Shown here: one piece after another, positions 11,080-50,637 of the stretch
Layout: each line of letters begins with the position of its first letter
Position numbering within the stretch: position 1 is the stretch's first letter
Assembly: GCA_003278545.1 (NCBI GenBank)
Contig: QCEF01000006.1
Coordinates: forward strand, 19,272-83,271
Length of the DNA: 64,000 bases
Direction: 5' to 3'
Origin: Prochlorococcus sp. AG-355-N16
Lineage (GTDB): Bacteria > Cyanobacteriota > Cyanobacteriia > PCC-6307 > Cyanobiaceae
Notes under the pieces: model-generated
What the model was told of the DNA's origin: nothing
The model's input: only the letters and a program-made list of their open reading frames with translations
Databases searched by the model: none
Translations under genes and position numbers: made by a program

Positions 11080-14000
11080 ATGTGTAAATACTGCGTATCG
11101 ATTTCCTCAGAATTTGAATATGTTGATTTATCAGACTCGCTTTCCTCAATTGGGGCTGATAATAATAGATCCCCTAATTCTAATTTAGACAGAGTTGATC
11201 CTAATTTGCTCGTTAGTGCTTATTTTGGAGATGTTTTAGCAGGACATATTAATTGGTCTGGAGGGAATGAAACTGTTAAATACTTCATCTATGATCAAGC
11301 GGACACATTAAATATAAATGTTTGGAATTATGATGGAACATCTCAAACTGGAACTGAAACAGCTACAACAATCGCTCATAATAATGATTCTGAAAGTTTT
11401 ATTAGAAATATATTTAATACATTAGATTCTCTTGTTGATATTGATTTTGAAGAGGTCAACTCTTTTGATGATTCAGATTTAGATATTATCTCTGTTTCTG
11501 ACTACTCATCTTGGTCTTCAGGTGTTGTAGGTCAAGTTGAAAACGGAGCAGATGAATGGAATATTTTATGGAAAAATACCAATATTGGCGGATCTTTAAG
11601 TGATTTTGATAAAAATACAATCGTTCATGAAATAGGGCACGCTCTAGGTCTATCTCATCCAAATGAAGACCCTTACAATGCTGCATGGAATACAGTTGAA
11701 GACACTGTAATGTCCTACAACTCTAATTCAGGAACTTGGGGTTATGACTTTACACAGGATGATAATTCTGCTTTAGCTTCTATTTGGAATTCAGAAAACG
11801 ACGATACCGCTGCTCCTACATTTTCCTCCGCAGCAACAAACTCTGCCGGCACAAAGGTAATTCTTACTTACAACGAGGCTTTATCTTCTACTACTGCAGC
11901 AACTTCTGCTTTCTCAGTTACATCAGGGGGTTCCAGTAATAGCGTTACTGCAGTAGCGATATCTGGATCAACTGTAGAACTTACACTTACAACAATTGTT
12001 AAAAATGATGAGGCAGTTACCGTTGCTTACACTGATCCTTCCAGCAGTAATGACTCTAATGCAATCCAGGATTCTTCTGGTAATGATGCTATTTCTTTAA
12101 GCTCTACCAACGTTACCAATAATTCGACAGTAGCCTCTAGTAGCGGAGCAATATTAGGAACTAATTATTATAAAGTAGTCAATGGCTATGAATGGACTAC
12201 TGCAAGGACAAATGCGCAGAACTTAGGGGGAGATCTAGTAGTAATAGACGACTCAACAGAAAATACATTTCTTATAGATAACTTTCGGAGTCAGATCGTA
12301 ATTGATGATTGGGGTGGCGGAGCTAGAGGTGGTGCATGGATAGGTCTACACCAAAACACCACAAGAGCTGATAGAGCATGGGTAGATGGTACAACTATCA
12401 GCTATACAAATTATGGAACAAGCCAAGACAAGGCGTCTTTGCCCTACCACGGCGGATATTTAATTTTAATGAAGCAAGGTGGTAATAATGATGATACGTG
12501 GTGGGTAGAGCCTGTAGACCCACTAACTTATTACAATCTTAGTGAAAGTGCTTGGGCTTACAGATATGGAATTGCTGAAGTACCCTTATCATATTTTTCA
12601 ATAAGTGATCTTAGTATCGACGAGGGCAGCACCGGTTCAGTAACTATTAGTAGGACTGGAGGCTCAGATTCTGTTCAGAATATCGTTGTCAGTTCAAATA
12701 ATGCAACTGCATCTAATTCTGATTACACCTCTATTAGCCAAACTATTACTTTTGCCACAGGTGAAACATCAAAAACATTTAACTTTTCTGCATCCTCTGA
12801 TTCTTTGTCAGAATCAAACGAGACATTAACTATCAGCATTTCAGGATCAAGCTCAGATGATATCCCAGCTCAATTTACAGATAGTTCTTCAACAATTACG
12901 ATTCGGAATATCGATTCAACTGCTCCTACATTTTCTTCTGCTGCTACCAATACTGCCGGGACAAAAGTAATCCTTACCTATAACGAGGCGTTATCTTCTA
13001 CAACTGCAGCAACTTCTGCTTTTGCCGTAACCACTGGTGGGTCCAGTAATGCCGTTACTAACGTAGCAATTTCAGGGTCAACCGTAGAACTAACTCTGAC
13101 AACAACCGTTAAAAATGATGAGACTGTTACCGTTGCTTACACTGATCCTTCCAGCAGTAATGACTCTAACGCAATCCAGGATTCTGCTGGTAATGATGCT
13201 ATTTCCTTAAGCTCTACCAGCGTTACCAATAATTCAACTGTTGCAGGGACTGCTCCTACATTTTCTTCTGCTGCTACCAATACTGCCGGTACAAAAGTAA
13301 TCCTTACCTATAACGAGGCGTTATCTTCTACAACTGCAGCAACTTCTGCTTTTGCCGTAACCACTGGTGGGTCCAGCAATAGCGTTACTAACGTAGCAAT
13401 TTCAGGGTCAACCGTAGAACTAACTCTGACAACAACAGTTAAAAATGATGAGACTGTTACTGTTGCCTATACAGATCCATCTAGCGGTAATGACTCTAAT
13501 GCAATCCAGGATTCTTCTGGTAATGATGCTATTTCTTTAAGCTCTACCAGCGTTACTAATAATTCAACTGTAGAGAATACCTCAAGTTCTTCTGATTCAT
13601 CTGATTCTTCTAGTTCTTCTGATTCTTCAAGTTCATCTGGGTCCTCAAATCCAACATTATCAAGCTCCTCCCCTTCAGATAATTCTTCAGCAGTTGCAGT
13701 AGGAAGTAATATTGTACTGAACTTTTCAGAAGTTGTTTATACCTCAAATGAAGATACAAATATATTCATATATAAATCATCGGATGATTCTATTGCAGAA
13801 ATGATCCCAATAAGTGACGACAGAATTACTGGTAGTGGAACCGAGCAAATAACAATTAATCCAGCCTCCGATTTGCTTGAAGACACAGATTATTATGTAA
13901 TGATAACGCCGGTATCTTTTAAAGACTTAGCAGGAAATTTTTATCAAGGCATTCTTGATAGCACCAGCCTCAATTTTAAAACTGCATCATCTAGTTCTGC

Positions 14001-14805
14001 AGGTTCTTCTAGTTCATCTGATTCTTCTAGTTCATCTAGTTCTTCCTCATCCACTCCGATTACAGATGGTGTTGAGGTGGCACAAGTTAACTCTTCATAT
14101 TCTGCAGATTCCAATGGATTTTCTAGTGTAAGTGGTTCTGCTCCAGTTACCATTACTACCTATACCATTGGTCAGGAAACAACTCTTGATTCCATAAAAG
14201 ATTATGATGGCTTCCTACATGCCGGAGATAATTTAGCTGCAACCGCATCATCTTATAAATACCAGGGGATGTTAGATGTAAATGGAGATGGCGTCTTTTC
14301 AGCTATCTTCACTAATAAATCATCTAAAAGATGGGTAACAGCAAAGGTTGATTCCACAACTGGTCAAATTGATTTTGATGATAATGGTAAAGGCGGCGGG
14401 ACCAGAGTTGTTGGAATCTACGCAGATCCACTAATTGCAGAAGGTGAAAAATACGGTGGGTTTTTATCAGATGGAACAACTCCAGCTCCTGCAAACTTCG
14501 GAGTTTCTGATGCAGATAGATATGTGGTAGTTAACGGAGAAAGAATTGATCGTTTAGCTCTTAATAGTCAGGTAAGATTCCAGAATGATTTAGAAATAGA
14601 CAATTTAGTGGCTAAACATGCTGGAGATTATGATTCTGACGGCGTGCATGAGGTTTACTGGAAAACAGCTGATGGCAGTGCTTATCTAAGATCATTAATG
14701 CATGCTGATGGAAATATTAGATATGCTAATTACCAAAGTGAAACTCAAATGCGGGAATATTTAACTTCTAACGGTGATGAATCTGCAATAAATGATATTG
14801 TTTAA
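11080..14805 (+). CDS. Large mosaic secreted metzincin protease with C-type lectin, Calx-beta and SWM-type repeats
   Basis: The 1241-residue protein has no Sec signal peptide. In order: a metzincin domain with HEIGHALGLSH (His183, Glu184, His187, His193) and a Met-turn in DTVMSYNS (Met211); SWM-type repeat 1 (about 245-352); a C-type-lectin-like domain (about 357-500); a Calx-beta domain (about 503-612); SWM-type repeats 2 and 3 (615-723 and 725-833); a Ser/Asp linker; a Big_5-like Ig domain (about 863-966); another Ser linker; and a 250-residue C-terminal domain rich in Asp/Gly (DVNGDGVFS, DYDSDGVHEV). Lack of a signal peptide, the acidic Gly/Asp-rich C-terminus and a nearby type I exporter make it a likely type I substrate. 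It should act outside the cell, binding a glycan or surface and cutting protein. Its repeats are visibly richer in G+C than neighbouring genes. Confidence 0.85.
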   Translation: MCKYCVSISSEFEYVDLSDSLSSIGADNNRSPNSNLDRVDPNLLVSAYFGDVLAGHINWSGGNETVKYFIYDQADTLNINVWNYDGTSQTGTETATTIAHNNDSESFIRNIFNTLDSLVDIDFEEVNSFDDSDLDIISVSDYSSWSSGVVGQVENGADEWNILWKNTNIGGSLSDFDKNTIVHEIGHALGLSHPNEDPYNAAWNTVEDTVMSYNSNSGTWGYDFTQDDNSALASIWNSENDDTAAPTFSSAATNSAGTKVILTYNEALSSTTAATSAFSVTSGGSSNSVTAVAISGSTVELTLTTIVKNDEAVTVAYTDPSSSNDSNAIQDSSGNDAISLSSTNVTNNSTVASSSGAILGTNYYKVVNGYEWTTARTNAQNLGGDLVVIDDSTENTFLIDNFRSQIVIDDWGGGARGGAWIGLHQNTTRADRAWVDGTTISYTNYGTSQDKASLPYHGGYLILMKQGGNNDDTWWVEPVDPLTYYNLSESAWAYRYGIAEVPLSYFSISDLSIDEGSTGSVTISRTGGSDSVQNIVVSSNNATASNSDYTSISQTITFATGETSKTFNFSASSDSLSESNETLTISISGSSSDDIPAQFTDSSSTITIRNIDSTAPTFSSAATNTAGTKVILTYNEALSSTTAATSAFAVTTGGSSNAVTNVAISGSTVELTLTTTVKNDETVTVAYTDPSSSNDSNAIQDSAGNDAISLSSTSVTNNSTVAGTAPTFSSAATNTAGTKVILTYNEALSSTTAATSAFAVTTGGSSNSVTNVAISGSTVELTLTTTVKNDETVTVAYTDPSSGNDSNAIQDSSGNDAISLSSTSVTNNSTVENTSSSSDSSDSSSSSDSSSSSGSSNPTLSSSSPSDNSSAVAVGSNIVLNFSEVVYTSNEDTNIFIYKSSDDSIAEMIPISDDRITGSGTEQITINPASDLLEDTDYYVMITPVSFKDLAGNFYQGILDSTSLNFKTASSSSAGSSSSSDSSSSSSSSSSTPITDGVEVAQVNSSYSADSNGFSSVSGSAPVTITTYTIGQETTLDSIKDYDGFLHAGDNLAATASSYKYQGMLDVNGDGVFSAIFTNKSSKRWVTAKVDSTTGQIDFDDNGKGGGTRVVGIYADPLIAEGEKYGGFLSDGTTPAPANFGVSDADRYVVVNGERIDRLALNSQVRFQNDLEIDNLVAKHAGDYDSDGVHEVYWKTADGSAYLRSLMHADGNIRYANYQSETQMREYLTSNGDESAINDIV
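11812..12133 (+). repeat. SWM-type repeat unit 1 (coding)
   Basis: This is the first of three copies of a roughly 110-codon unit that begins APTFSSAATN and ends near TNNSTV. It is the most diverged of the three at DNA level and is separated from the other two by the lectin and Calx-beta domains. Confidence 0.85.
12922..13245 (+). repeat. SWM-type repeat unit 2 (coding)
   Basis: Second copy, 330 bases before copy 3. Its first 180 bases differ from copy 3 at only a handful of positions, including third-codon positions, which points to recent duplication or gene conversion. Confidence 0.88.
13252..13575 (+). repeat. SWM-type repeat unit 3 (coding)
   Basis: Third copy, in tandem with copy 2. 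The 3' third diverges from copy 2 (for example in the codons of TVAYTDPSSGN) and resembles copy 1 near its end (AIQDSSGNDAISL), which suggests mosaic exchange among copies. Confidence 0.88.
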
Positions 14806-17565: not shown

Positions 17566-18828
17566 TTAAGAATCTAATTGATCAACATTAATAAATCGCA
17601 TTCTGCAAAGATTTGATGAGAATTCATCTCTCCAAGAATCTCCTATTAAACATGACTCTTCTAAATTGATATTCCTTTCAAATGCTGCTTCCATAAACAT
17701 ACCAGGTGATGGTTTTCTGCAAAAACAATTTGATTTAAGACTTTTTATTTCATGATCAAAACCTTTATGAGGATGATGAGGACATATATAAAAAGCCGAA
17801 ATATTTAGACCCATTTTTTGACAAGCTTTAATTAAATAGCCATTTATTTCAATTACTTTTTGCCACTCAACAAAACCCATAGCAATTTGAGGCTGATTTG
17901 AAGCTATGATCGCAATATCATAATTTGTAAGAATTTTAATAATTTTTTTTATTCTTTTTGTAAAAAGTTTAATTTGGCTTAATTCTGTAATGTATTTCCC
18001 TTCTTTACATTTTATAAGGGTGTTGTCTCTATCTAAAAATAAAGCTCTTTGCTTATTTAAATAACACTTTCTGCTAATTAAGCCGTTTTTGATATCTTTT
18101 TCTACACTTAATAATCTTTCTGGAGTTCCCATATCTTTGAGATATTCAGAAGTATTGTAACTAAAAACCTTAAAACCTTTTTCATAAGAATTTATTATGA
18201 AATCTTTAAAAATACTTAACTGTGAATTTTTACAAATATCTGAATTTTTTATTCTTGAAACTACTTTTTTCTTTAAAACCGCAATTCCTGCAAATCCTAA
18301 AAACATACCATTAATATTAAGTTTCTGCGTTTTTAACTTATATCTATTAATTGATAATTCTGGGGTTTCAATAATACAATCTGAGTCCTCCGGATGGTTT
18401 GTTAAGTGGGTTATAAAAGTAATATCAGCATTATTTTTTATATGAAAGAGATTGATTCTTTTTAGGTCAATTTCAAAAATAATATCTCCATTTATAAAAA
18501 TAAAATTATCTTTTAATTTTTCTTCAATAAATAGTAGACTTCCTGCTTCGCCTTTAGGCTCTTCTTCCTTATAAATAAAAATTTTTATATTAAACTTTTT
18601 TGATAACTTAATAGACTGCTCTTCAAAAATGTTAGCCTTATAACCTACTAAAAATATAAATTCTTTAATTCCCTGTTTATTCAGAAATTCTACTGTTCTT
18701 TCAAGTGTATGCTTTCCTAAAATTGGCCAAAGAGGTTTTGGTACTTTATCAGTAATAGAACTTAAACGTGTGCCTTTCCCACCAAGAGTAATAATAGCTT
18801 GCGATATATTATTAATTAAATCACCCAA
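17566..18828 (-). CDS. Fused heptose-1-phosphate nucleotidyltransferase (HddC-like) and heptose-1,7-bisphosphate phosphatase (GmhB-like)
   Basis: The 420-residue protein joins two enzymes. Residues 1-250 are a nucleotidyltransferase (GGKGTRLSSITDKVPKPL at 16-33, later INGDIIFEIDL) matching the HddC group that makes GDP-D-glycero-D-manno-heptose. Residues 262-420 are a HAD phosphatase of the GmhB group with nucleophile motif DRDNT (D266, D268) and a likely zinc site (C349, H351 or H352, C368, C370 in CPHHP and CFCRKP). The acid motif is GDSWRDEF (D397). They would remove the 7-phosphate and add the nucleotide in one polypeptide. The start overlaps the end of the heptose kinase gene by 13 bases, so the set is coupled. 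GDP rather than ADP is inferred from the partner kinase type. Confidence 0.85.
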   Translation of the reverse strand: MGDLINNISQAIITLGGKGTRLSSITDKVPKPLWPILGKHTLERTVEFLNKQGIKEFIFLVGYKANIFEEQSIKLSKKFNIKIFIYKEEEPKGEAGSLLFIEEKLKDNFIFINGDIIFEIDLKRINLFHIKNNADITFITHLTNHPEDSDCIIETPELSINRYKLKTQKLNINGMFLGFAGIAVLKKKVVSRIKNSDICKNSQLSIFKDFIINSYEKGFKVFSYNTSEYLKDMGTPERLLSVEKDIKNGLISRKCYLNKQRALFLDRDNTLIKCKEGKYITELSQIKLFTKRIKKIIKILTNYDIAIIASNQPQIAMGFVEWQKVIEINGYLIKACQKMGLNISAFYICPHHPHKGFDHEIKSLKSNCFCRKPSPGMFMEAAFERNINLEESCLIGDSWRDEFSSNLCRMRFINVDQLDS

Positions 18829-19805
18829 GATTCACATCCCTCTGCATGAATATTCACTGGTATTAAATCAAAAGAACAATTTTTTAATTTCTTTTTATCT
18901 CTTTCTAAATTTTCTCCTTGGTATTTTATCAGAATATAGCCTCCACCTCCTGCTCCAAGAATTTTCACAGTTTTGAAATTTGCTAAATTTATATTTTCTT
19001 CTATTTTTAAAATATTATCATTCATTACACCTCTTATACTTTTTTTTATTTCCCACGAAGCTGAAATGGCTGACTCTAAATTATTAACAATTTGATCTAT
19101 ATCATTTAATTCCCTTGAATCTGATAAAAATTTGCTAGCAATATTTAATATATTTTCTATTTGCATAAATGATTTATCTTTATTTTTTATATTTAAAAGC
19201 TGTTTATTTGCAGATCTAGAAATATAAGTATTTAATAGAAACAATTTTTCTGTATATTTAGAAATCGCTTTTGTAATATTTGGATAATTTTTTATGTTTA
19301 CTTTGTTGTCTTTTTGGAACTCAAGATAATTGACTCCTCCGAGCGCACAAAGATACTGATCTTGTCTACCTATAGGACTATTGAGATTATTTATTTCTAT
19401 TTCGCATGCAAGATGCGCCGCTTCAGAATTTTTAATTTTTTTTCCTTCCAAATTATATATTGCTTTTATCATCGCGACTGTAAAAGATGAAGAACTGGCT
19501 AATCCACCCCCCATTAATGCATCTCCAAAAGAGGCCATTTCGATTGGTTTTTTAATTGAAAACTTTGTGAGACAAGCCCGTATAATTGGATGAGAAATTG
19601 ATTCAATTTCCAAATATTCTTCTCTTGAGCTGTAATTTAATAATCCTCTATTATTATTACTACGAAATCCGATAGCAACTCTCGAAAAAATTGGAATTGA
19701 GAATCCAATTGTCAAACCATATCCAAGTTTTTTAACGAACCATTCTAGATCTGAGCCTCCACCTAGAAGTGAAATTCTGCAAGGGCATTTTGATACTACG
19801 ATCAT
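18816..19805 (-). CDS. hddA: D-glycero-D-manno-heptose 7-phosphate kinase (GHMP family)
   Basis: The 329-residue GHMP kinase has N-terminal CPCRISLLGGGSDLEWF, the ATP-binding motif MGGGLASSSSF (98-108) and a C-terminal KILGAGGGGYILI. This matches HddA, which phosphorylates heptose 7-phosphate at C1 with alpha configuration in the GDP-heptose route. The ADP-heptose route uses an unrelated PfkB-type kinase (HldE). The ATG overlaps the stop of gmhA by four bases. Product and neighbours agree, so the call is strong. Confidence 0.9.
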   Translation of the reverse strand: MIVVSKCPCRISLLGGGSDLEWFVKKLGYGLTIGFSIPIFSRVAIGFRSNNNRGLLNYSSREEYLEIESISHPIIRACLTKFSIKKPIEMASFGDALMGGGLASSSSFTVAMIKAIYNLEGKKIKNSEAAHLACEIEINNLNSPIGRQDQYLCALGGVNYLEFQKDNKVNIKNYPNITKAISKYTEKLFLLNTYISRSANKQLLNIKNKDKSFMQIENILNIASKFLSDSRELNDIDQIVNNLESAISASWEIKKSIRGVMNDNILKIEENINLANFKTVKILGAGGGGYILIKYQGENLERDKKKLKNCSFDLIPVNIHAEGCESWVI

Positions 19806-20437
19806 GCGATTAAATCTTCCCCTACTCTTTTAATATATTTAGCCATTGGTGCAGCATCCTTAGATAATAATTTGTATAGTTTTTGTTTTACAAAGTGAAA
19901 AGTTGCAATTTGAGCATCCTCCGCAATTTCCATATCATTAACATTTACATGTATTGGAATATCAACTAAATCTCTTAAAGCTCCGCCAGAGTACCCCAGG
20001 ATCGCAGCCGATGTTATCATTTTGGTTTTAGCAATTCGGGCTGATTTTACTAAGTTCATTGAATTACCACTTCCTGAAAGGAAAATTATTAAATCATTTT
20101 TTCTTACTCTAGAATTAATTAATAGTTCAAATACTTCTGAATAATCTAAATCGTTCGAAACAGCTGTTATGTAACAAGAATTGTCTGCTAAAGAATACAT
20201 ATTTATACATTTACCTATCATCGCAAAAGTTTTAGAATAATCCCCAACAATATGGTGAGCATTGGCAGCACTACCACCATTTCCAATTAAAAAAATTTGG
20301 TCAATTGTACCAATCCTATTAAAGATTTCTTCTTTTAGCTTATTTACTAAAGATTCGTCTATTGTTTCTAATGCCTTTGCAAGGGTGTTTCCATAATCTT
20401 TGAGATTTTTATAATCCAAAATTAAACTATTACCCAA
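19802..20437 (-). CDS. gmhA: Sedoheptulose 7-phosphate isomerase (GmhA, SIS family)
   Basis: The 211-residue SIS-domain protein has IGNGGSAANAHHIVGDYSKT (51-70) and SGSGNSMNLVKSA, both phosphosugar-binding loops. It converts sedoheptulose 7-phosphate to heptose 7-phosphate, the first step of nucleotide-heptose synthesis. Near the C-terminus AEDAQIATFH aligns by eye with IQEIHIKVIH of E. coli GmhA. The catalytic histidine would then be glutamine here, although the second histidine is kept; this alignment is uncertain. It overlaps hddA by four bases and follows a transferase gene by 28 bases on the same strand. Confidence 0.85.
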   Translation of the reverse strand: MGNSLILDYKNLKDYGNTLAKALETIDESLVNKLKEEIFNRIGTIDQIFLIGNGGSAANAHHIVGDYSKTFAMIGKCINMYSLADNSCYITAVSNDLDYSEVFELLINSRVRKNDLIIFLSGSGNSMNLVKSARIAKTKMITSAAILGYSGGALRDLVDIPIHVNVNDMEIAEDAQIATFHFVKQKLYKLLSKDAAPMAKYIKRVGEDLIA

Positions 20438-21596: not shown

Positions 21597-21768
21597 GATA
21601 AAACTAGAATTAATCTTTAAATTTCAGTATTATATCAATGTCCATAATCTCATTATTAAGTATTTTAAGATATTCTCTAAAATTAAATATTACGCCGTTA
21701 TCATGAGCTAAAAATGTTAATGGCTTCTTATTTATTATTATTAAAAGCAGGCTTTGAACTCCTATCAT

Positions 21769-22668
21769 ATGGAATTAAGTAGAAAAGGGATAATCTTAGC
21801 TGGGGGATATGGCACAAGATTAGCTCCATTAACTAATTCGGTAAGCAAGCAATTAATGCCTGTTTATGATAAACCAATGATTTATTATCCATTAAGTACT
21901 TTAATGCTTTTTGGCATAAAAGAAATAATGATCATAACTACTAAAAAGGACCTCAATTCATTTAAGAATTTATTAAGTGATGGAAGTCAGTTTGGAGTGA
22001 ATATTGAATATCAAATTCAAGAAAAACCTGATGGTATTGCTCAAGCTTTTTTAATTGCTCGCAAATTTATTGGAAATTCTCCAGTAGTATTAATACTTGG
22101 GGATAATATTTTTTATGGCAGTAATTTAGTTAAATCTCTTAAAGAAGCAGACGCTAATAAAGACTTTGCAACGATTTTTGCATACAGGGTAAAGGACCCA
22201 GAAAGATATGGAGTGGTTGATTTTGATCAATCTTTAAAAATTTTAAGCATAGAAGAAAAACCTAAAGAACCAAAAACTTTTTATGCAGTCACAGGAATTT
22301 ATTTTTACAATAATACAGTATTAGAAAAGGTTTTGAGTTGCAAACCATCTCCTCGAGGTGAATTAGAGATTTCTTCTATCAATGAAGAATTCTTAAAAGA
22401 AAAAAAATTAAAACTAAAAATTCTTGGGAGGGGCACTGCTTGGCTAGATACAGGAACATTTGATTCTTTACATGAAGCTGGGTCTTTTATAAGGACTATT
22501 GAACAGAGACAAGGATTTAAAGTGGGATGTCCCGAAGAAATAGCTTGGAGAAAAGGTTGGATAACTAATAAAAAATTAGAAAATTTAAGTAAAAAATTAA
22601 TGAAAAGTGGATATGGTGAATATTTAATTAATCTACTAAAAGATAAAAGTAAGATTTCCTCTCTTTAA
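21769..22668 (+). CDS. rfbA: Glucose-1-phosphate thymidylyltransferase
   Basis: The 299-residue enzyme has GIILAGGYGTRLAPLTNSVS near the start, the uridylyl/thymidylyl-type KQLMPVYDKPMIYYPLSTLM, GDNIFYG and IEEKPKEPK. All are diagnostic for RmlA/RfbA, which makes dTDP-glucose from dTTP and glucose 1-phosphate. An in-frame TTG at 21754 would add five residues; the ATG at 21769 fits the family start better. It is followed after 15 bases by rfbB. No rfbC or rfbD is in the window, so dTDP-rhamnose is not completed here. See the 2,3-dehydratase at 24837. Confidence 0.95.
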   Translation: MELSRKGIILAGGYGTRLAPLTNSVSKQLMPVYDKPMIYYPLSTLMLFGIKEIMIITTKKDLNSFKNLLSDGSQFGVNIEYQIQEKPDGIAQAFLIARKFIGNSPVVLILGDNIFYGSNLVKSLKEADANKDFATIFAYRVKDPERYGVVDFDQSLKILSIEEKPKEPKTFYAVTGIYFYNNTVLEKVLSCKPSPRGELEISSINEEFLKEKKLKLKILGRGTAWLDTGTFDSLHEAGSFIRTIEQRQGFKVGCPEEIAWRKGWITNKKLENLSKKLMKSGYGEYLINLLKDKSKISSL

Positions 22669-22683
22669 TAAATAAAAAATCCA

Positions 22684-23784
22684 ATGTCAAATTTATCAGA
22701 GAATTTTAAGAATATTTTAGTTACTGGAGGAGCTGGATTTATTGGAGGAGCTGTAATTCGACAGTTACTAATTAATTCATGCGCAAATATTTTTAATATT
22801 GATAAGCTTGGTTATGCAAGCGATTTGAGTGGGATTAATGAAACCTTATCAAAGCTTAAATTATCTAATCAAAAAAGATACTCTCAACTCCATTTTAATC
22901 TTTCAAATTTTAGTGAAATTGAAGAGTTAATCAACAAAATAAAACCTGATCTTATTCTACATTTAGCAGCAGAAACTCATGTAGATAGATCAATCGAAAA
23001 CCCCAGGGAATTTATAGATAGTAATATAGTTGGCACATTTAATTTGTTAGAAGCCACTAGAAACTTCCTAAAAAATTCTTCTGTAGATAAGAAAAATATA
23101 TTCAAATTTATTCATGTTAGTACTGATGAGGTATTTGGATCTCTTGGGGAAAATGGTATGTTTTCTGAGAAGTCTAATTATGACCCTAGGAGTCCGTATT
23201 CCTCAACTAAGGCAGCAAGTGATCATTTGGTCTCTTCTTGGTTTCACACATACAATTTTCCAGCTATCATTACAAATTGCAGTAATAATTATGGACCTTG
23301 GCAATTTCCTGAGAAGCTCATACCGCTTGTTATTAATAAAGTTTTGAATAAGGAACCTATACCTATGTATGGCGATGGTAAGAATATTAGAGATTGGCTA
23401 TATGTTGAAGATCATGCTGAAGCGATTATTTTGGTTGCGAATAAAGGCTTAGTAGGTGAAAGATTTTGTATAGGAGGTAATACAGAAAAAACAAATAAAG
23501 AATTAATAATATCAATCTGCGAATTTATGGATAAAATTCTTAATAGAGAGATATCTTCAACTGAATTAATTTCAAGTGTCCCTGATAGACCTGGTCACGA
23601 TTTCAGATATGCAATGGATACGAGATTAATAAATCAAAAGTTAGGCTGGAAGCCAAGTCATAATTTTAATGAAGGCTTAGAAAAAACAATTTTATGGTAC
23701 TTAAATAACAAAGTTTGGACCAAAAATGTTTTACAAAAATCTAATTACAATAGTGAAAGAATAGGCTTAATAAAGGAAAAATAA
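22684..23784 (+). CDS. rfbB: dTDP-glucose 4,6-dehydratase
   Basis: The 366-residue extended SDR has [10 protein letters not shown] for NAD binding, HLAAETHVDRSIENP and HVSTDEVFGSLGE (Thr and the Asp-Glu pair of the dehydratase subfamily). YSSTKAASDHLV supplies the catalytic Tyr and Lys. It makes dTDP-4-keto-6-deoxyglucose, the branch point for all 6-deoxysugars of the dTDP series. It converges on the minus-strand ketoreductase/2,3-dehydratase pair, a layout that puts the four enzymes of one predicted pathway side by side. Confidence 0.95.
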   Translation: MSNLSENFKNILVTGGAGFIGGAVIRQLLINSCANIFNIDKLGYASDLSGINETLSKLKLSNQKRYSQLHFNLSNFSEIEELINKIKPDLILHLAAETHVDRSIENPREFIDSNIVGTFNLLEATRNFLKNSSVDKKNIFKFIHVSTDEVFGSLGENGMFSEKSNYDPRSPYSSTKAASDHLVSSWFHTYNFPAIITNCSNNYGPWQFPEKLIPLVINKVLNKEPIPMYGDGKNIRDWLYVEDHAEAIILVANKGLVGERFCIGGNTEKTNKELIISICEFMDKILNREISSTELISSVPDRPGHDFRYAMDTRLINQKLGWKPSHNFNEGLEKTILWYLNNKVWTKNVLQKSNYNSERIGLIKEK

Positions 23785-23848
23785 TTTTTATACCAATAGA
23801 AATATAATAACTATCTATTAAAAAATTTAATCTTATGGGAATTTAATA

Positions 23849-24850
23849 TTATTCATTACTTTTTTCTCTAATTTCTTCAATTAATCTTGCTTGCTCAAGT
23901 ATGTAATTTGATTCTTCAAGAAATAACTTTTCATTTGATAATGTTTCATAAAAATAAAGCATTAAGTTTTTGAAATGATCATCTTTACCAATAACTATTG
24001 TTTCTGATGATCCATTTATTTCCAGATCTAATTTAGTAACCAAATCTGATGGAGAAGTGAAAATTCTGTTAGTTTTAATTTTTCCTTTAGAACCCCATAT
24101 CTCAATATCACACTTGTAGTAATTATCGAATCCAAATGATATTTGAGAATTAACTTTTTTATTAATGTCTACAAAATGAGCAGCGCCCCACATATCAATA
24201 TTTAATTCATGATTTTTAATCAAAGATGCAGATTTAACTTTTAGCCCCAATCCATTTAATAAACTTACTATCTTAGTGGGGTAAACACCTGAATCAAAAA
24301 GAGACCCACCTCCATATTTATTTTGATACCTGATATTTTCAGGGAAATTTATTTTTGGGAATCCAAAAGAAGAATTAATATTTCTCAAATCCCCAATTTT
24401 ATTTTCCTTTATAATTTGTTTAATAAATTTAAATTGTTTATGAAAACGAAATTGAAAAGTCTCTACTATTGATAATTGATTTTTTTTAGCAATATTTATT
24501 AATTCCTGGGTTTCTTTAAAGGAACAAGTACAAGGTTTTTCAACTAAAACATTTATTCCTCTTTGAAGACACTCTTTTGACCAATGATAATGAAGAGAAT
24601 TAGGAAGAGGAATATAGATTGCATCAAGATTTTCATTATCTAATAATTTGTAATAGTCATCATAAAATTTGCAGTTATATTCTGTTAAAGAATTAAAATC
24701 AGTTTTTCCCTTTGATGCAATGCCAACTAAATTAAATTTATCTTGCAAATTTAATAAAGAGGGTATAACTTTTCTTGTGGCAATTGAAGCCAATCCAAGA
24801 ATCCCTATTTTGAATAACTCCTGCTTATTGGAGATTTTAGAAAAGTGCAA
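23849..24850 (-). CDS. Gfo/Idh/MocA oxidoreductase, probable NDP-hexose 3-ketoreductase
   Basis: The 333-residue protein has an N-terminal NAD(P) fold (GILGLASIATRKVIPSL), EKP at 104-106 with the conserved lysine, and GGGSLFDSGVYPT (180-192) with the Asp/Tyr pair typical of the family. This is the family of KijD10- and TylC1-type NDP-hexose 3-ketoreductases. The gene overlaps the 2,3-dehydratase gene by 14 bases, the natural partner whose unstable 3,4-diketo product must be reduced at once. The specific reaction is inferred from this pairing; the family itself is certain. Confidence 0.82.
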   Translation of the reverse strand: MHFSKISNKQELFKIGILGLASIATRKVIPSLLNLQDKFNLVGIASKGKTDFNSLTEYNCKFYDDYYKLLDNENLDAIYIPLPNSLHYHWSKECLQRGINVLVEKPCTCSFKETQELINIAKKNQLSIVETFQFRFHKQFKFIKQIIKENKIGDLRNINSSFGFPKINFPENIRYQNKYGGGSLFDSGVYPTKIVSLLNGLGLKVKSASLIKNHELNIDMWGAAHFVDINKKVNSQISFGFDNYYKCDIEIWGSKGKIKTNRIFTSPSDLVTKLDLEINGSSETIVIGKDDHFKNLMLYFYETLSNEKLFLEESNYILEQARLIEEIREKSNE

Positions 24851-26234
24851 TTAAATTCCTCAATTGTATATTTAAGATATTATTAAATTGATTCAAAAAA
24901 GAAAGTTGGTATAAATCAATCCATATATATCCAGGTAAAAGTTCTTCGTCAAAATCATCATTTGCTAAAGCAAAAATATTTCTATTTTGTTCGTTTAAGA
25001 ATCTACCACCCTCTTCCGATTGAATTGTATCAATTAAGATTTGTTTATTTTTAGAACTAATTATAAAGTCATAATATTTATCTTTTTTTTCTAAAGGCTT
25101 ATTTATATATTGAAAAGTAGGACCTAATTCAGCGATATCAAATATTCCTACTTCAGGCATTATCTTTACTATTACATGTAATTTATTTTTAATGATTTTA
25201 CCAATAAGACCAAAAATCCCAATTCCATTTTGATAAATTATTGGCTGATCCCAATTAAATACTTCTCTTGTTCTTATGTTTGAAGATATTCCAACAAATT
25301 TAAATTCGGAATTACTTTTTTTTTCTATACAATCAGAATCTAAATTCCATCCCCTTAAATTATTAAGAGGAATAAATTTTGTATTTATAAAATTGTTTGA
25401 TTTAAATTTCATGAAAATCTTTATTATATCTTCAATATTATTTTTAGAATCACCTATACCTGACAGCGAATTTAAATAGATAGATCCATTAGATATTATT
25501 TCTATAAATTTTTTATAATTTTTTTTATCAACTGAATTAACTTTAATATCATTAAATCTAATTAAAGATATTACAGACCTCGCGCACATATTTACGAGAT
25601 TATCATATCCCATGCATATCTTTAGTTGTCTTAGTGTCATCCATTTATAATTATCTTTTAATTCAATTTCTTCATCGACATTAATTATTATGTTTCTATT
25701 CCTTTTCTTATAAAAGCGAGATGAATGTTCAGATTGCAAACTATCAAATAATATATTTTTATTTTCTACTTTAAGAAAATATGATAAATAATCTGGCTCT
25801 TTCCCCCCATGTTTTCGAGTATAATTACTTTTAGTAGCTTGAAGTGTTGGCGATAATTGTACGAAATTAATATTTCCTGGCTCAATTTTTGCTTGGACTA
25901 GAAAATAAAGTAAACCATTAATTTTTTTTACGATAAAACCAAGAATCCCAACTTCTTTTTGCAAAATTATAGGCTGATCTAAATTATTTAACTGACTAAA
26001 ACTAGATTCGATTTGTAATCCCTTAATTGAAAAAAAACTATTCTTTGAGTGTTGAATTGAATTATATTCATCGGTGAGTTTCCAATTTTCTAAATCGCTA
26101 AGTGGTTTTATTTTTACTTCCGAAAAAGAATTATCTCGAATTTTTTTTATCCACAATAATATACTTTCAATATTTTCAAATGTTTCATCTGATGATGTAT
26201 AACTTTCAAGAAAATCTAAATATCTTATTTCCAA
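24837..26234 (-). CDS. NDP-hexose 2,3-dehydratase
   Basis: The 465-residue protein carries two copies of the PF03559-type domain. In the first copy: FFSIKGL, LDQPIILQKEVGILGF, QAKIEPGN (114-121), SPTLQATKSNYT (128-139), and WMTLRQL with NLVNMCARS. In the second: WDQPIIYQNGIGIFGL, ELGPTFQYI and QSEEGGRFLNEQNRN. Length and double layout match enzymes such as EvaA and TylX3. They remove water from dTDP-4-keto-6-deoxyglucose to open the 2,6-dideoxysugar route used in macrolide and glycopeptide sugars. The second copy lacks the SNYT motif, as is usual. It is first in an operon with the 3-ketoreductase and has a good promoter upstream. Confidence 0.9.
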   Translation of the reverse strand: MEIRYLDFLESYTSSDETFENIESILLWIKKIRDNSFSEVKIKPLSDLENWKLTDEYNSIQHSKNSFFSIKGLQIESSFSQLNNLDQPIILQKEVGILGFIVKKINGLLYFLVQAKIEPGNINFVQLSPTLQATKSNYTRKHGGKEPDYLSYFLKVENKNILFDSLQSEHSSRFYKKRNRNIIINVDEEIELKDNYKWMTLRQLKICMGYDNLVNMCARSVISLIRFNDIKVNSVDKKNYKKFIEIISNGSIYLNSLSGIGDSKNNIEDIIKIFMKFKSNNFINTKFIPLNNLRGWNLDSDCIEKKSNSEFKFVGISSNIRTREVFNWDQPIIYQNGIGIFGLIGKIIKNKLHVIVKIMPEVGIFDIAELGPTFQYINKPLEKKDKYYDFIISSKNKQILIDTIQSEEGGRFLNEQNRNIFALANDDFDEELLPGYIWIDLYQLSFLNQFNNILNIQLRNLIALF

Positions 26235-30406: not shown

Positions 30407-31402
30407 ATGTCTTTAATAAACTTAAATGATAAAATATTTATATGCGGTCATAATGGAATGGTCGGAAGTGCAATATTGAGAGCTTTAACAAAAAAAAATT
30501 ATCAAAATATACTTACAATCTCTAGGAAACAATTAGATTTATCTTGTCAAGAAGCTGTAAATCAATGGTTTGTCTCTAACAAACCAGATGTTGTTATTTT
30601 GGCAGCAGCAAAAGTGGGTGGAATAATGGCTAATAATATTTATCCAACTGAATTTTTATTAGAAAATCTACAAATCCAAAATAATGTAATTGAATCAGCT
30701 TGGAGAAATAACGTTAAAAGACTTCTTTTCTTAGGCAGCAGTTGTATTTATCCAAAATTTGCTAAACAACCTATAACTGAAGATTCATTATTGACTGGGG
30801 AACTTGAGAGCACCAATGAATTTTATGCAATTGCAAAAATTTCTGGAATTAAATTATGTGAGGCTTTAAGAAAACAATATGGATTTGATTCAATATGTTT
30901 AATGCCAACTAATTTATATGGTCCTGGCGATAACTATAATCTAAAAAACAGCCATGTTTTGCCCGCTTTAATTAGAAAATTTTATGAGGCGAAGTTAAAA
31001 GATAGAGAAAGTGTTACATGTTGGGGGACTGGAAAACCACTCAGAGAGTTTTTACATGTTGATGATCTTGGTGATGCATGTGTATTTTCTCTTGAAAATT
31101 GGAATCCAGACAACCCAGATTCTCCAGTAGATAGAAATGGGAAAAAATTAACTTTCTTAAATGTTGGAAGCGGTAAAGATATTTCTATAAAAAACTTGGC
31201 TGAAATCATAAGCAAAGAAATTAAATATGAAGGACAAATAATTTGGGATGATAATTTACCCGATGGCACTCCTAGAAAATTATTAGATGTTAGAAAAATT
31301 TCGAGTTTAGGATGGACTCCTAAAATTGACTTAAAAATGGGCATCTCCAAAACAATTGAAGACTTCACTTACAAAATCAAAAATAAACAATTAAGACAAT
31401 AA
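30407..31402 (+). CDS. fcl: GDP-L-fucose synthase
   Basis: The 331-residue enzyme has FICGHNGMVGSAILRAL, AAAKVGGIMANN, LGSSCIYPKFAKQPI and FYAIAKISGIKLCEAL (catalytic Tyr/Lys), plus NLYGPGDNY. These are hallmarks of Fcl/WcaG, which epimerises and reduces the Gmd product to GDP-L-fucose. It ends two bases before the ABC exporter gene. The GT10 and GT11-like transferases at 33205 and 43062 are the obvious users of the product. Confidence 0.96.
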   Translation: MSLINLNDKIFICGHNGMVGSAILRALTKKNYQNILTISRKQLDLSCQEAVNQWFVSNKPDVVILAAAKVGGIMANNIYPTEFLLENLQIQNNVIESAWRNNVKRLLFLGSSCIYPKFAKQPITEDSLLTGELESTNEFYAIAKISGIKLCEALRKQYGFDSICLMPTNLYGPGDNYNLKNSHVLPALIRKFYEAKLKDRESVTCWGTGKPLREFLHVDDLGDACVFSLENWNPDNPDSPVDRNGKKLTFLNVGSGKDISIKNLAEIISKEIKYEGQIIWDDNLPDGTPRKLLDVRKISSLGWTPKIDLKMGISKTIEDFTYKIKNKQLRQ

Positions 31403-37376: not shown

Positions 37377-38321
37377 GTGCAAAAATTTAATATAAAAAAT
37401 TTAGTTACTGGTGGTGCAGGATTCATCGGCTCACATCTTATAGATAGATTAATGGATAAAGGAGAAGAAGTAATTTGTTTAGATAATTTTTATACAGGTG
37501 TAAAATCTAATTTAGACAAATGGTATACCAATCCTAGATTTGAATTAATAAGGCATGATGTCACAGAGCCAATAACAATTGAAATTGATAGGATATGGCA
37601 TTTAGCTTGTCCAGCGTCTCCTGTTCATTACCAACGTAATCCTATAAAAACATCTAAAACGAGTTTTTTAGGTACCTACAACATGCTTGGATTAGCAAAA
37701 AGATTAAATGCCGAAATATTATTTGCATCTACTAGTGAAATTTATGGAGATCCTGAGGTAAGTCCTCAAAGAGAGGACTACAAAGGATCTGTAAATCCCA
37801 TTGGTATTAGGTCTTGTTACGACGAAGGTAAGAGAATTGGAGAAACATTATGTTTTGATTATCATCGAAAACATCTAACTAAAATTAAAGTAATGCGTAT
37901 TTTTAATACATACGGACCGAGGATGTCGCCTGATGACGGAAGGGTAGTTAGTAATTTTATTGTTCAAGCTTTGAGAGGCGAGAACTTAACAATTTATGGC
38001 GATGGTAGCCAGACAAGAAGCTTCTGCTATGTTGATGATCTTGTTGATGGAATGCAAAGATTAATGGAAAGCAAGCTTATAGGCCCTGTAAATATTGGTA
38101 ATGATGAAGAGTTTACTATTTATGAACTTGCTAAAGTTATAATAAAAAAAATAAATCCAGAGCTTGAAATTATATTTAAGCCTTTGCCCGAAGATGACCC
38201 GCATCAAAGAAAACCATTTTTAGAAATTGCTAAAAAAGAACTCAAATGGTATCCCAATATAAGATTAAATGAAGGTTTAGATAAAACAATAGACTACTTC
38301 AGGTCTATCAAAATAACTTAA
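37377..38321 (+). CDS. uxs: UDP-glucuronate decarboxylase (UDP-xylose synthase)
   Basis: The 314-residue SDR starts with GTG. It has [48 protein letters not shown] and [12 protein letters not shown] (Tyr/Lys pair), the diagnostic string for UXS. It makes UDP-xylose from UDP-glucuronate with loss of CO2. The next gene, six bases on, makes UDP-glucuronate. Product sugar xylose, or arabinose after epimerisation, is thus likely a component of the surface glycan. Confidence 0.95.
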
Positions 38322-49743: not shown

Positions 49744-50637
49744 ATGAATATACATATATTCGGAAGTTCTAATCCATCTGGACAAGCACTTATAAACTTA
49801 ATTTCAAATAAATTACCTTCATCTAAAGTCTTTATTTTCTCAAGAAAAAATAAAACTAATTTTGTTGATTTAGATAATGCCTCTTCATACAAACCTGATA
49901 TTAATGAGGATTATGTTTTAGTATCATTTGCACCGATATGGAAAATAGCTTATTTTTTAGATCAATTGCTTATTAAAAAAAGTTCTAGTTTGAAAAAGAT
50001 AAAAGGATTAATTATTTGCTCTTCTTCCTCAGTAATGACAAAAAGATTTTCTTCTAATAAATTTGATAAAGATCTTTATTGTAAAATATATGATTCTGAA
50101 GATAAAATTTTGAATTTTTCTAAAAAGCTAAAAAAGCCATTGATAATTGTTCAGCCAACATTAATCTATGGAAATGTTGGTGAATTTAAGGATAGGAATA
50201 TAAATTTAATTATTTCTATAATGAGAAAAATACCATTTGTTTTTCTTCCATCTAATTCTGGAATGAGACAACCTATTCACGCCTCTCAATTGGCTGAATT
50301 TGTTTTCCTGAAATTTCTTTCGATGAAAAAAGAAAATTTTAAAAGAAATCAAAAAATCCTTTTAGGTGGTGATTTTATTTTTTCATACGAAGTTATGTTA
50401 AAGAAGATTCAAGAAGCATTACCTGAAAATGACAAAGCAAAAAGGTGTAAGATAATTATCATAAATCAAAGATTATTCTTTTTTTTAATTTCCCCAATAA
50501 ATTTGATTTCTCCAAAATGGTTTGAGTCTTTATTTAGGATTAATTCAGATTTAGCTGGTTTTGAAAAGGTTTCTAAACTAATTAAAAAGAAAAAGTTTCA
50601 ATTCCCAGGGGATCAAAAATATTTTATAAAAAATTAA
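49744..50637 (+). CDS. NAD-dependent sugar epimerase/dehydratase-like protein (WbpV/WbpK-like place), with altered motifs
   Basis: The 297-residue protein resembles extended SDRs. It has IHIFGSSNPSGQALINLI at the start (the middle glycine of GXXGXXG is Asn), then IICSSSSVMTKRF, LIIVQPTLIYGNVGEF and GMRQPIHASQLAEF. The usual YXXXK cannot be clearly placed (KDLYCKIYDSED), so activity is in doubt or the site is unusual. Upstream of WbpL-like and WbpM-like genes, this spot is taken by the C4 reductase WbpV/WbpK in Pseudomonas. I infer the same role: making UDP-QuiNAc or UDP-FucNAc. Confidence 0.65.
   Translation: MNIHIFGSSNPSGQALINLISNKLPSSKVFIFSRKNKTNFVDLDNASSYKPDINEDYVLVSFAPIWKIAYFLDQLLIKKSSSLKKIKGLIICSSSSVMTKRFSSNKFDKDLYCKIYDSEDKILNFSKKLKKPLIIVQPTLIYGNVGEFKDRNINLIISIMRKIPFVFLPSNSGMRQPIHASQLAEFVFLKFLSMKKENFKRNQKILLGGDFIFSYEVMLKKIQEALPENDKAKRCKIIIINQRLFFFLISPINLISPKWFESLFRINSDLAGFEKVSKLIKKKKFQFPGDQKYFIKN

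Follow-up and report, generated by a model that had tools for sequence, protein, structure and literature searches.

A predicted 2,6-dideoxyhexose pathway in a surface-glycan region of a Prochlorococcus genome

Why would a Prochlorococcus genome carry, in a surface-glycan region, genes that resemble those of antibiotic sugar pathways, and which sugar would they make? The question is raised by a stretch of 64,000 nucleotides from Prochlorococcus sp. AG-355-N16 (contig C6, positions 19272-83271; the window, whose own numbering is used below), part of a 1.65 Mb assembly that is 95.5% complete. Four complete open reading frames (ORFs) lie together in the window:

21754-22668, plus strand: putative rfbA/rmlA, glucose-1-phosphate thymidylyltransferase (TIGR01207, 450.4 bits, cut-off 360.65)
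22684-23784, plus strand: putative rfbB/rmlB, dTDP-glucose 4,6-dehydratase (TIGR01181, 409.9 bits, cut-off 365.1; motifs TDEVFG and YSSTK)
23849-24850, minus strand: predicted Gfo/Idh/MocA C3-ketoreductase, KijD10/TylC1-like (PF01408 and PF22725; best PDB match 3rbv)
24837-26234, minus strand: predicted NDP-hexose 2,3-dehydratase of EvaA/TylX3 type with two repeats (PF03559, EvaA match, predicted fold)

We consider it reasonably probable that these four genes take glucose-1-phosphate to dTDP-4-keto-2,6-dideoxy-D-glucose, a likely building block of surface glycan, and that C4 is probably reduced by an unlinked short-chain dehydrogenase/reductase (SDR).

The first-pass annotation of this DNA, made from the sequence alone, had described rfbA and rfbB as converging on a reductase and a dehydratase that overlap by 14 bases, and the ORF coordinates bear this out. 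A gap of 15 bp separates rfbA from rfbB, and 64 bp separate rfbB from the convergent reductase. Both minus-strand genes open with TTG, so the exact size of the 14-base overlap depends on the choice of start; the real start of rfbA is likely the in-frame ATG at 21769. Close database relatives of the pair match in length (P0001, 465 amino acids; P0121, 333 amino acids). The G+C content of the four genes (24-31%) lies near that of the window (27%) and is therefore no marker of recent import.

Profile and model evidence strongly supports the assignment of the 24837-26234 product as an EvaA-type 2,3-dehydratase with dTDP-4-keto-6-deoxyglucose as its predicted substrate. Profile search and structure comparison with EvaA had been proposed as checks on this identity, and both came out positive. 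PF03559 matches with 403.7 bits (gathering cut-off 25; E 1.5e-121) in two stretches that correspond to both repeats, and EvaA is the sole match in a PDB sequence search (2.3e-76); NCBIfam holds zero models that match. In a Foldseek search, the top four matches of a structure predicted from a 17-sequence alignment (predicted local distance difference test, pLDDT, 88.2) are all EvaA chains, led by 4j7h with template modelling (TM) scores of 0.86/0.89, and the structural alignment gives 29-30% identity. Passages of PMC8987622 name E139 and E190 of EvaA as likely catalytic and assign the enzyme to the Nudix superfamily. The equivalents in pocket A of the window protein, E118 and E169, are invariant in 17/17 aligned rows including the window's own. 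The classical Nudix motif was looked for in the window dehydratase and is absent. The likeness to EvaA of Amycolatopsis orientalis and to TylX3 thus covers the two-repeat fold, both likely catalytic glutamates and the presumed substrate, whereas no antibiotic cluster was seen around the window copy.

The neighbouring reductase had been read as a KijD10/TylC1-type enzyme, and this identity is upheld. It is a two-domain Gfo/Idh/MocA protein whose best solved match, nearly full length, is the sugar 3-ketoreductase 3rbv with its variants (3.6e-43 to 2.4e-42); the next other PDB protein is far behind at 2.1e-20. K105 and Y190 of the window protein fall at the alignment positions where entries 3rbv, 3rcb and 3rc7 differ from one another. 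We take 3rbv to be KijD10 and the variant entries to be its active-site mutants at K102 and Y186, in which case the Lys and Tyr are both kept. In contrast to KijD10 and TylC1, the window reductase sits in a surface-glycan region, and its activity is a prediction. For all these predicted gene identities, chance matches are excluded by the profile scores and the best PDB matches.

Characterised relatives suggest how the enzymes would act in turn. RfbA would convert glucose-1-phosphate to dTDP-glucose, and RfbB would convert this to dTDP-4-keto-6-deoxyglucose. The dehydratase would then strip the C2 hydroxyl to give a 3,4-diketo-2,6-dideoxy sugar, which the Gfo/Idh enzyme would reduce at C3. The reactions as far as dTDP-4-keto-2,6-dideoxyglucose, in the order first proposed, agree with the family, structure and residue matches, and the product up to the 4-keto intermediate is likely on these grounds. 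Beyond it, we infer the end product and its placement in glycan: an unlinked SDR would probably reduce the C4 ketone to give a D-olivose- or D-oliose-like sugar.

RfbA and RfbB are also common to the dTDP-L-rhamnose pathway (RmlABCD), and the rfbA of the window is the sole RfbA in the assembly listed above the TIGR01207 cut-off. The window genome differs from that pathway in that no RmlC was found: PF00908 has 0 matches in the whole assembly and is positive in 11/14 control genomes. Since RmlC was not found in a genome at this level of completeness, neither L-rhamnose nor an L-dideoxysugar that depends on RmlC is expected, and the sugar should remain in the D series; rhamnose and other RmlC products were rejected on this ground. 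The earlier statement that rhamnose is not completed in the window can thus be extended to the genome as far as RmlC is concerned. The accompanying suggestion of a genome search for rfbC and rfbD had a mixed outcome, as RmlC was not found and RmlD-family matches were. PF04321 has five over-cut-off matches (rfbB, fcl, gmd, an SDR at 37377 and an SDR on contig C17); these appear to be SDRs of other sugars, and any TIGR01214 scores listed for them are 29-53 bits, with the cut-off at 224. The absence of RmlC is not special to this genome. Among 266 genomes of the genus, 93 have RmlA over cut-off and 85 have RmlC; 26 of the 93 lack an RmlC match, and both genomes of the genus with PF03559 fall among these 26. 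A 3-amino sugar of Fdt/Qdt type was likewise rejected, as FdtA was not found in the genome.

A pathway of this kind outside antibiotic clusters had been thought exceptional, which is not borne out. A protein search with the dehydratase gave 7,693 relatives among 7,998 scored candidates, and one with the reductase 1,871 among 3,917. The 120 dehydratase matches listed span 38-96% identity, and the few that are named come from Prochlorococcus, Adhaeribacter, Leeuwenhoekiella and Prevotella/Segatella copri. A first genome scan that used just the window protein as query gave no relatives; an alignment-based scan of GTDB did find them, and the best 80 of 487 were taken as loci, of which two gave no dehydratase ORF, leaving 78 to be counted. 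By title, 55 of the 80 are Bacteroidota. The reductase lies directly downstream of the dehydratase in 64/78 of these loci and in 14/16 viral loci, the latter including identical copies. In the 64 adjacent pairs the ORFs overlap in 27, and an overlap or a gap of at most 10 bases is found in 55. Genomes with the pair belong to Bacteroidota, Firmicutes and Proteobacteria, among other groups.

A third gene often stands near this pair, either a DegT-family aminotransferase or an SDR, and is lacking beside the pair in the window, a point that the first-pass annotation missed. Within three genes of the dehydratase (n=78), a reductase is found in 72 loci, DegT in 40, SDR in 20 and RmlC in 6; DegT is the gene after the adjacent reductase in 33/64. 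Adjacent SDRs checked by Pfam belong to PF01370 or PF04321; among the other genes that follow are methyltransferases and a formyltransferase. Eight GTDB loci are Firmicutes by title, and six of these (L079, L093, L095, L104, L111, L115) hold dehydratase, reductase and SDR, although not side by side in L079, L104 and L111. Four of the six also have RmlC. Among the BLAST matches listed, rfbA and rfbB follow in L093, L095 and L115, and rfbA in L079 and L111. To judge from gene content, the six loci are apparently complete dTDP-2,6-dideoxyhexose gene sets. In the remaining two, the contig of L094 ends inside the reductase, and L105 has DegT, an RmlC match, rfbA and rfbB. The dehydratase-reductase-DegT and -SDR sets of Bacteroidota and Firmicutes (L044-L123) share the adjacent pair with the window, which differs in having no nearby DegT or SDR and in the convergence of rfbA and rfbB on the pair. 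Pfam also confirmed a Glf protein in L095.

In seven Streptomyces plasmid loci fetched out of 85 records, a Gfo/Idh gene follows the dehydratase directly in two and lies two genes on in one; DegT follows directly in two and precedes directly in one, and in three the annotation places polyketide synthase or acyl-carrier genes nearby. Viral sequences carry the genes as well. On IMG/VR contig L124 (669-16844) a dehydratase, a KijD10-like reductase and a DegT stand in a row with overlapping ends, on a contig that also bears genes for phage terminase large subunit, tail sheath and topoisomerase II. The dehydratase and reductase of L124 have no match among PHROG families, and no named phage record matched the window dehydratase.

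Within picocyanobacteria the dehydratase family is sparse: PF03559 occurs in 2/266 genomes of the genus (1/87 good ones) and in 8/400 sampled genomes of the family, with the window's own counted. Four other picocyanobacterial genomes were found with the pair, and all four have DegT. It adjoins the pair in G031, G207 and G094, and the DegTs of G031 and G094 score above the threshold of the model for dTDP-4-amino-4,6-dideoxygalactose transaminase. G514, which belongs to the window's own genus, seems to have its dehydratase split over two short contigs, one with reductase and DegT and the other with rfbA and rfbB. The latter contig, L140, bears rfbA and the N-terminal half of the dehydratase, and its rfbB (L140:2894-3971) lies in two frames of 132 and 231 amino acids, through a frameshift or a sequencing error. 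A divergent PF03559 protein (about 28% identity) is encoded in G072, G099 and G121, which belong to another genus. A sigma-70 gene adjoins it in all three, and tblastn (1e-5) of the surrounding 19.9 kb found no reductase, DegT, rfbA or rfbB of the kinds described here. G230 holds a PF03559 fragment. Close copies of the window genes are found elsewhere (P0001, 96%; P0002, 93%; P0121, 93%). The gene pair is thus rare in the genus yet drawn from a widespread pool, and the chemistry is unusual here without being new.

The phylogeny was taken from a careful tree of 77 rows, obtained from a 110-row quick tree by removing 13 rows (a misassigned ORF of L031, long branches, viral copies), thinning 24 and adding four from Streptomyces. 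The window dehydratase groups with seven proteins from metagenomes or genomes (100/100), and a protein of MIT 1341 joins this group (100/99). Seven Streptomyces rows make up one side of a branch (100/100) with the window copy outside, and two other cyanobacterial rows are placed elsewhere on long branches. The earlier label "antibiotic type" therefore holds for the chemistry and does not extend to the nearest relatives, the window copy lying outside the Streptomyces group. The quick tree had a Firmicutes group as sister of the window clade, which the careful tree did not uphold: there the nearest supported set adds just L026, and the approximately unbiased test of the Firmicutes-sister grouping (p-AU 0.276) means that it is neither shown nor excluded. 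Patchy distribution together with tree placement suggests repeated horizontal transfer.

For the step at C4, the first-pass annotation had admitted a gap at the 4-ketoreductase, and the genome search likewise gave no assignable enzyme. PF01370 has 17 matches in the genome; several fit other sugars (gmd, fcl, rfbB, galE-like), and none of the 17 could be assigned to C4 reduction. An SDR on contig C17, the top match to the profile of pair-linked SDRs, was tried as 4-ketoreductase and rejected, its best NCBIfam matches being 4,6-dehydratase/epimerase models below cut-off. The window itself offers a weak candidate:

49744-50637, plus strand: weak candidate for the 4-keto step, extended-SDR-like predicted fold (structure model)

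The protein has no Pfam or NCBIfam match. Its model (pLDDT 92.9) finds mostly SDR epimerases and reductases as best PDB matches, at TM scores of about 0.5-0.6, and YxxxK is absent from its invariant columns. Its family comprises 129 proteins found; organism names are given for three of those listed, all of them picocyanobacterial. The two ORFs directly after it look WecA- and WbpM-like by sequence, on our assumption, and so a role in 6-deoxy-N-acetylhexosamine synthesis is at least as likely.

Several points weigh against the proposed pathway, which ends with an unlinked SDR. No DegT or SDR stands beside the window pair, whereas relatives usually have such a finishing gene nearby, more often DegT than SDR; DegT flanks the pair in all four of the other picocyanobacteria. 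The linked-SDR profile gives weak matches in the genome, the best being 83.6 bits on another contig. As the assembly is 95.5% complete, a gene may also be unseen. Amination of C4 by a DegT encoded elsewhere, to give dTDP-4-amino-2,4,6-trideoxyhexose, would fit the DegT genes within three genes of the dehydratase in 40/78 GTDB loci and those beside the pair in G031, G207, G094 and G514. The DegT of L027 has 2po3 as its nearest PDB entry, listed as a 4-dehydrase and presumably DesI, and DesI is also its top model, below cut-off. PF01041 has, however, no match on the window's contig. The single full-length DegT of the genome lies on contig C1 in a setting that looks housekeeping-like by sequence; its identity to the cassette DegTs is 31-32% across 245-281 residues. 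We regard amination as rather unlikely.

The main alternative for the last step is that a glycosyltransferase moves the 4-keto-2,6-dideoxy sugar directly, so that no 4-ketoreductase is needed. This would agree with the absence of the usual third genes from the neighbourhood of the pair; against it, 4-keto sugars are reactive and we know of no surface-glycan case of such transfer. Ketoolivosyl-tetracenomycin C, named in a title cited in PMC12409901, is a possible precedent for transfer of a 4-keto-2,6-dideoxy sugar, and we give direct transfer a small chance. It is similarly improbable that the locus is a partial, decaying import that has lost its last gene and makes no 2,6-dideoxy sugar. The missing third gene and the rarity of PF03559 (2/266 genus genomes) would suit such decay, whereas both genes are full length, their active-site residues are conserved and copies 93-96% identical persist in other sequences. 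Reduction of C4 by an unlinked SDR, to a neutral D-2,6-dideoxyhexose, is the reading we favour.

The surroundings had been described as a surface-glycan island, and the neighbours agree: the window holds a Gmd over cut-off, an Fcl-like protein at 30407-31402 that resembles GDP-fucose synthase and scores below cut-off, and a GT10 fucosyltransferase, with more glycosyltransferase- and transporter-like ORFs judged from their sequence alone. At 17566-20437 on the minus strand lie genes like those for GDP-D-glycero-D-manno-heptose (a fused nucleotidyltransferase-HAD phosphatase, an HddA-like kinase and a GmhA-like isomerase), all scoring under the listed NCBIfam equivalog cut-offs. A large repeat protein is encoded at 11080-14805; several copies related to it, 49-65% identical over about 213-242 residues, lie elsewhere on this contig (L033) and on contig C17 (L034).

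The predicted surface 2,6-dideoxyhexose has a parallel in another phylum. Parts of PMC6388019 and PMC4030854 report digitoxose, a 2,6-dideoxyhexose, in the surface-layer O-glycan of Tannerella forsythia, and "Dig" appears in glycan compositions of this organism in a part of PMC6120980. A search of open-licence literature for the family or the sugar in polysaccharides, O-antigens or cyanobacteria, in which names containing commas could not be searched, gave nothing on point beyond PMC8987622 and the Tannerella papers. As general background rather than evidence on this locus, a passage of PMC11898729 describes the O-chain as a major target of phage receptor-binding proteins and draws a comparison with Prochlorococcus.

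We tentatively suggest, as a possibility short of even chances, that bacteria make 2,6-dideoxyhexoses mainly for surface glycans, through a mobile dehydratase-ketoreductase cassette that has swappable aminotransferase or reductase endings and circulates in glycan islands and T4-like phages; the antibiotic pathways would be one branch of this pool. The picocyanobacterium would have acquired this cassette, joined it to rfbA-rfbB, and might display a neutral D-2,6-dideoxyhexose (or the 4-keto sugar) that alters phage-receptor chemistry. Phage contig L124, with its matching gene set, hints that a phage may use these genes to alter host or virion glycans. For the many unassigned 2,3-dehydratases outside actinomycetes, an adjoining DegT would predict a 4-amino-2,4,6-trideoxy sugar, an SDR a neutral 2,6-dideoxyhexose and RmlC the L form. 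If the product is made, a type of cyanobacterium common in the ocean would bear a class of surface sugar known mostly from antibiotic tailoring.

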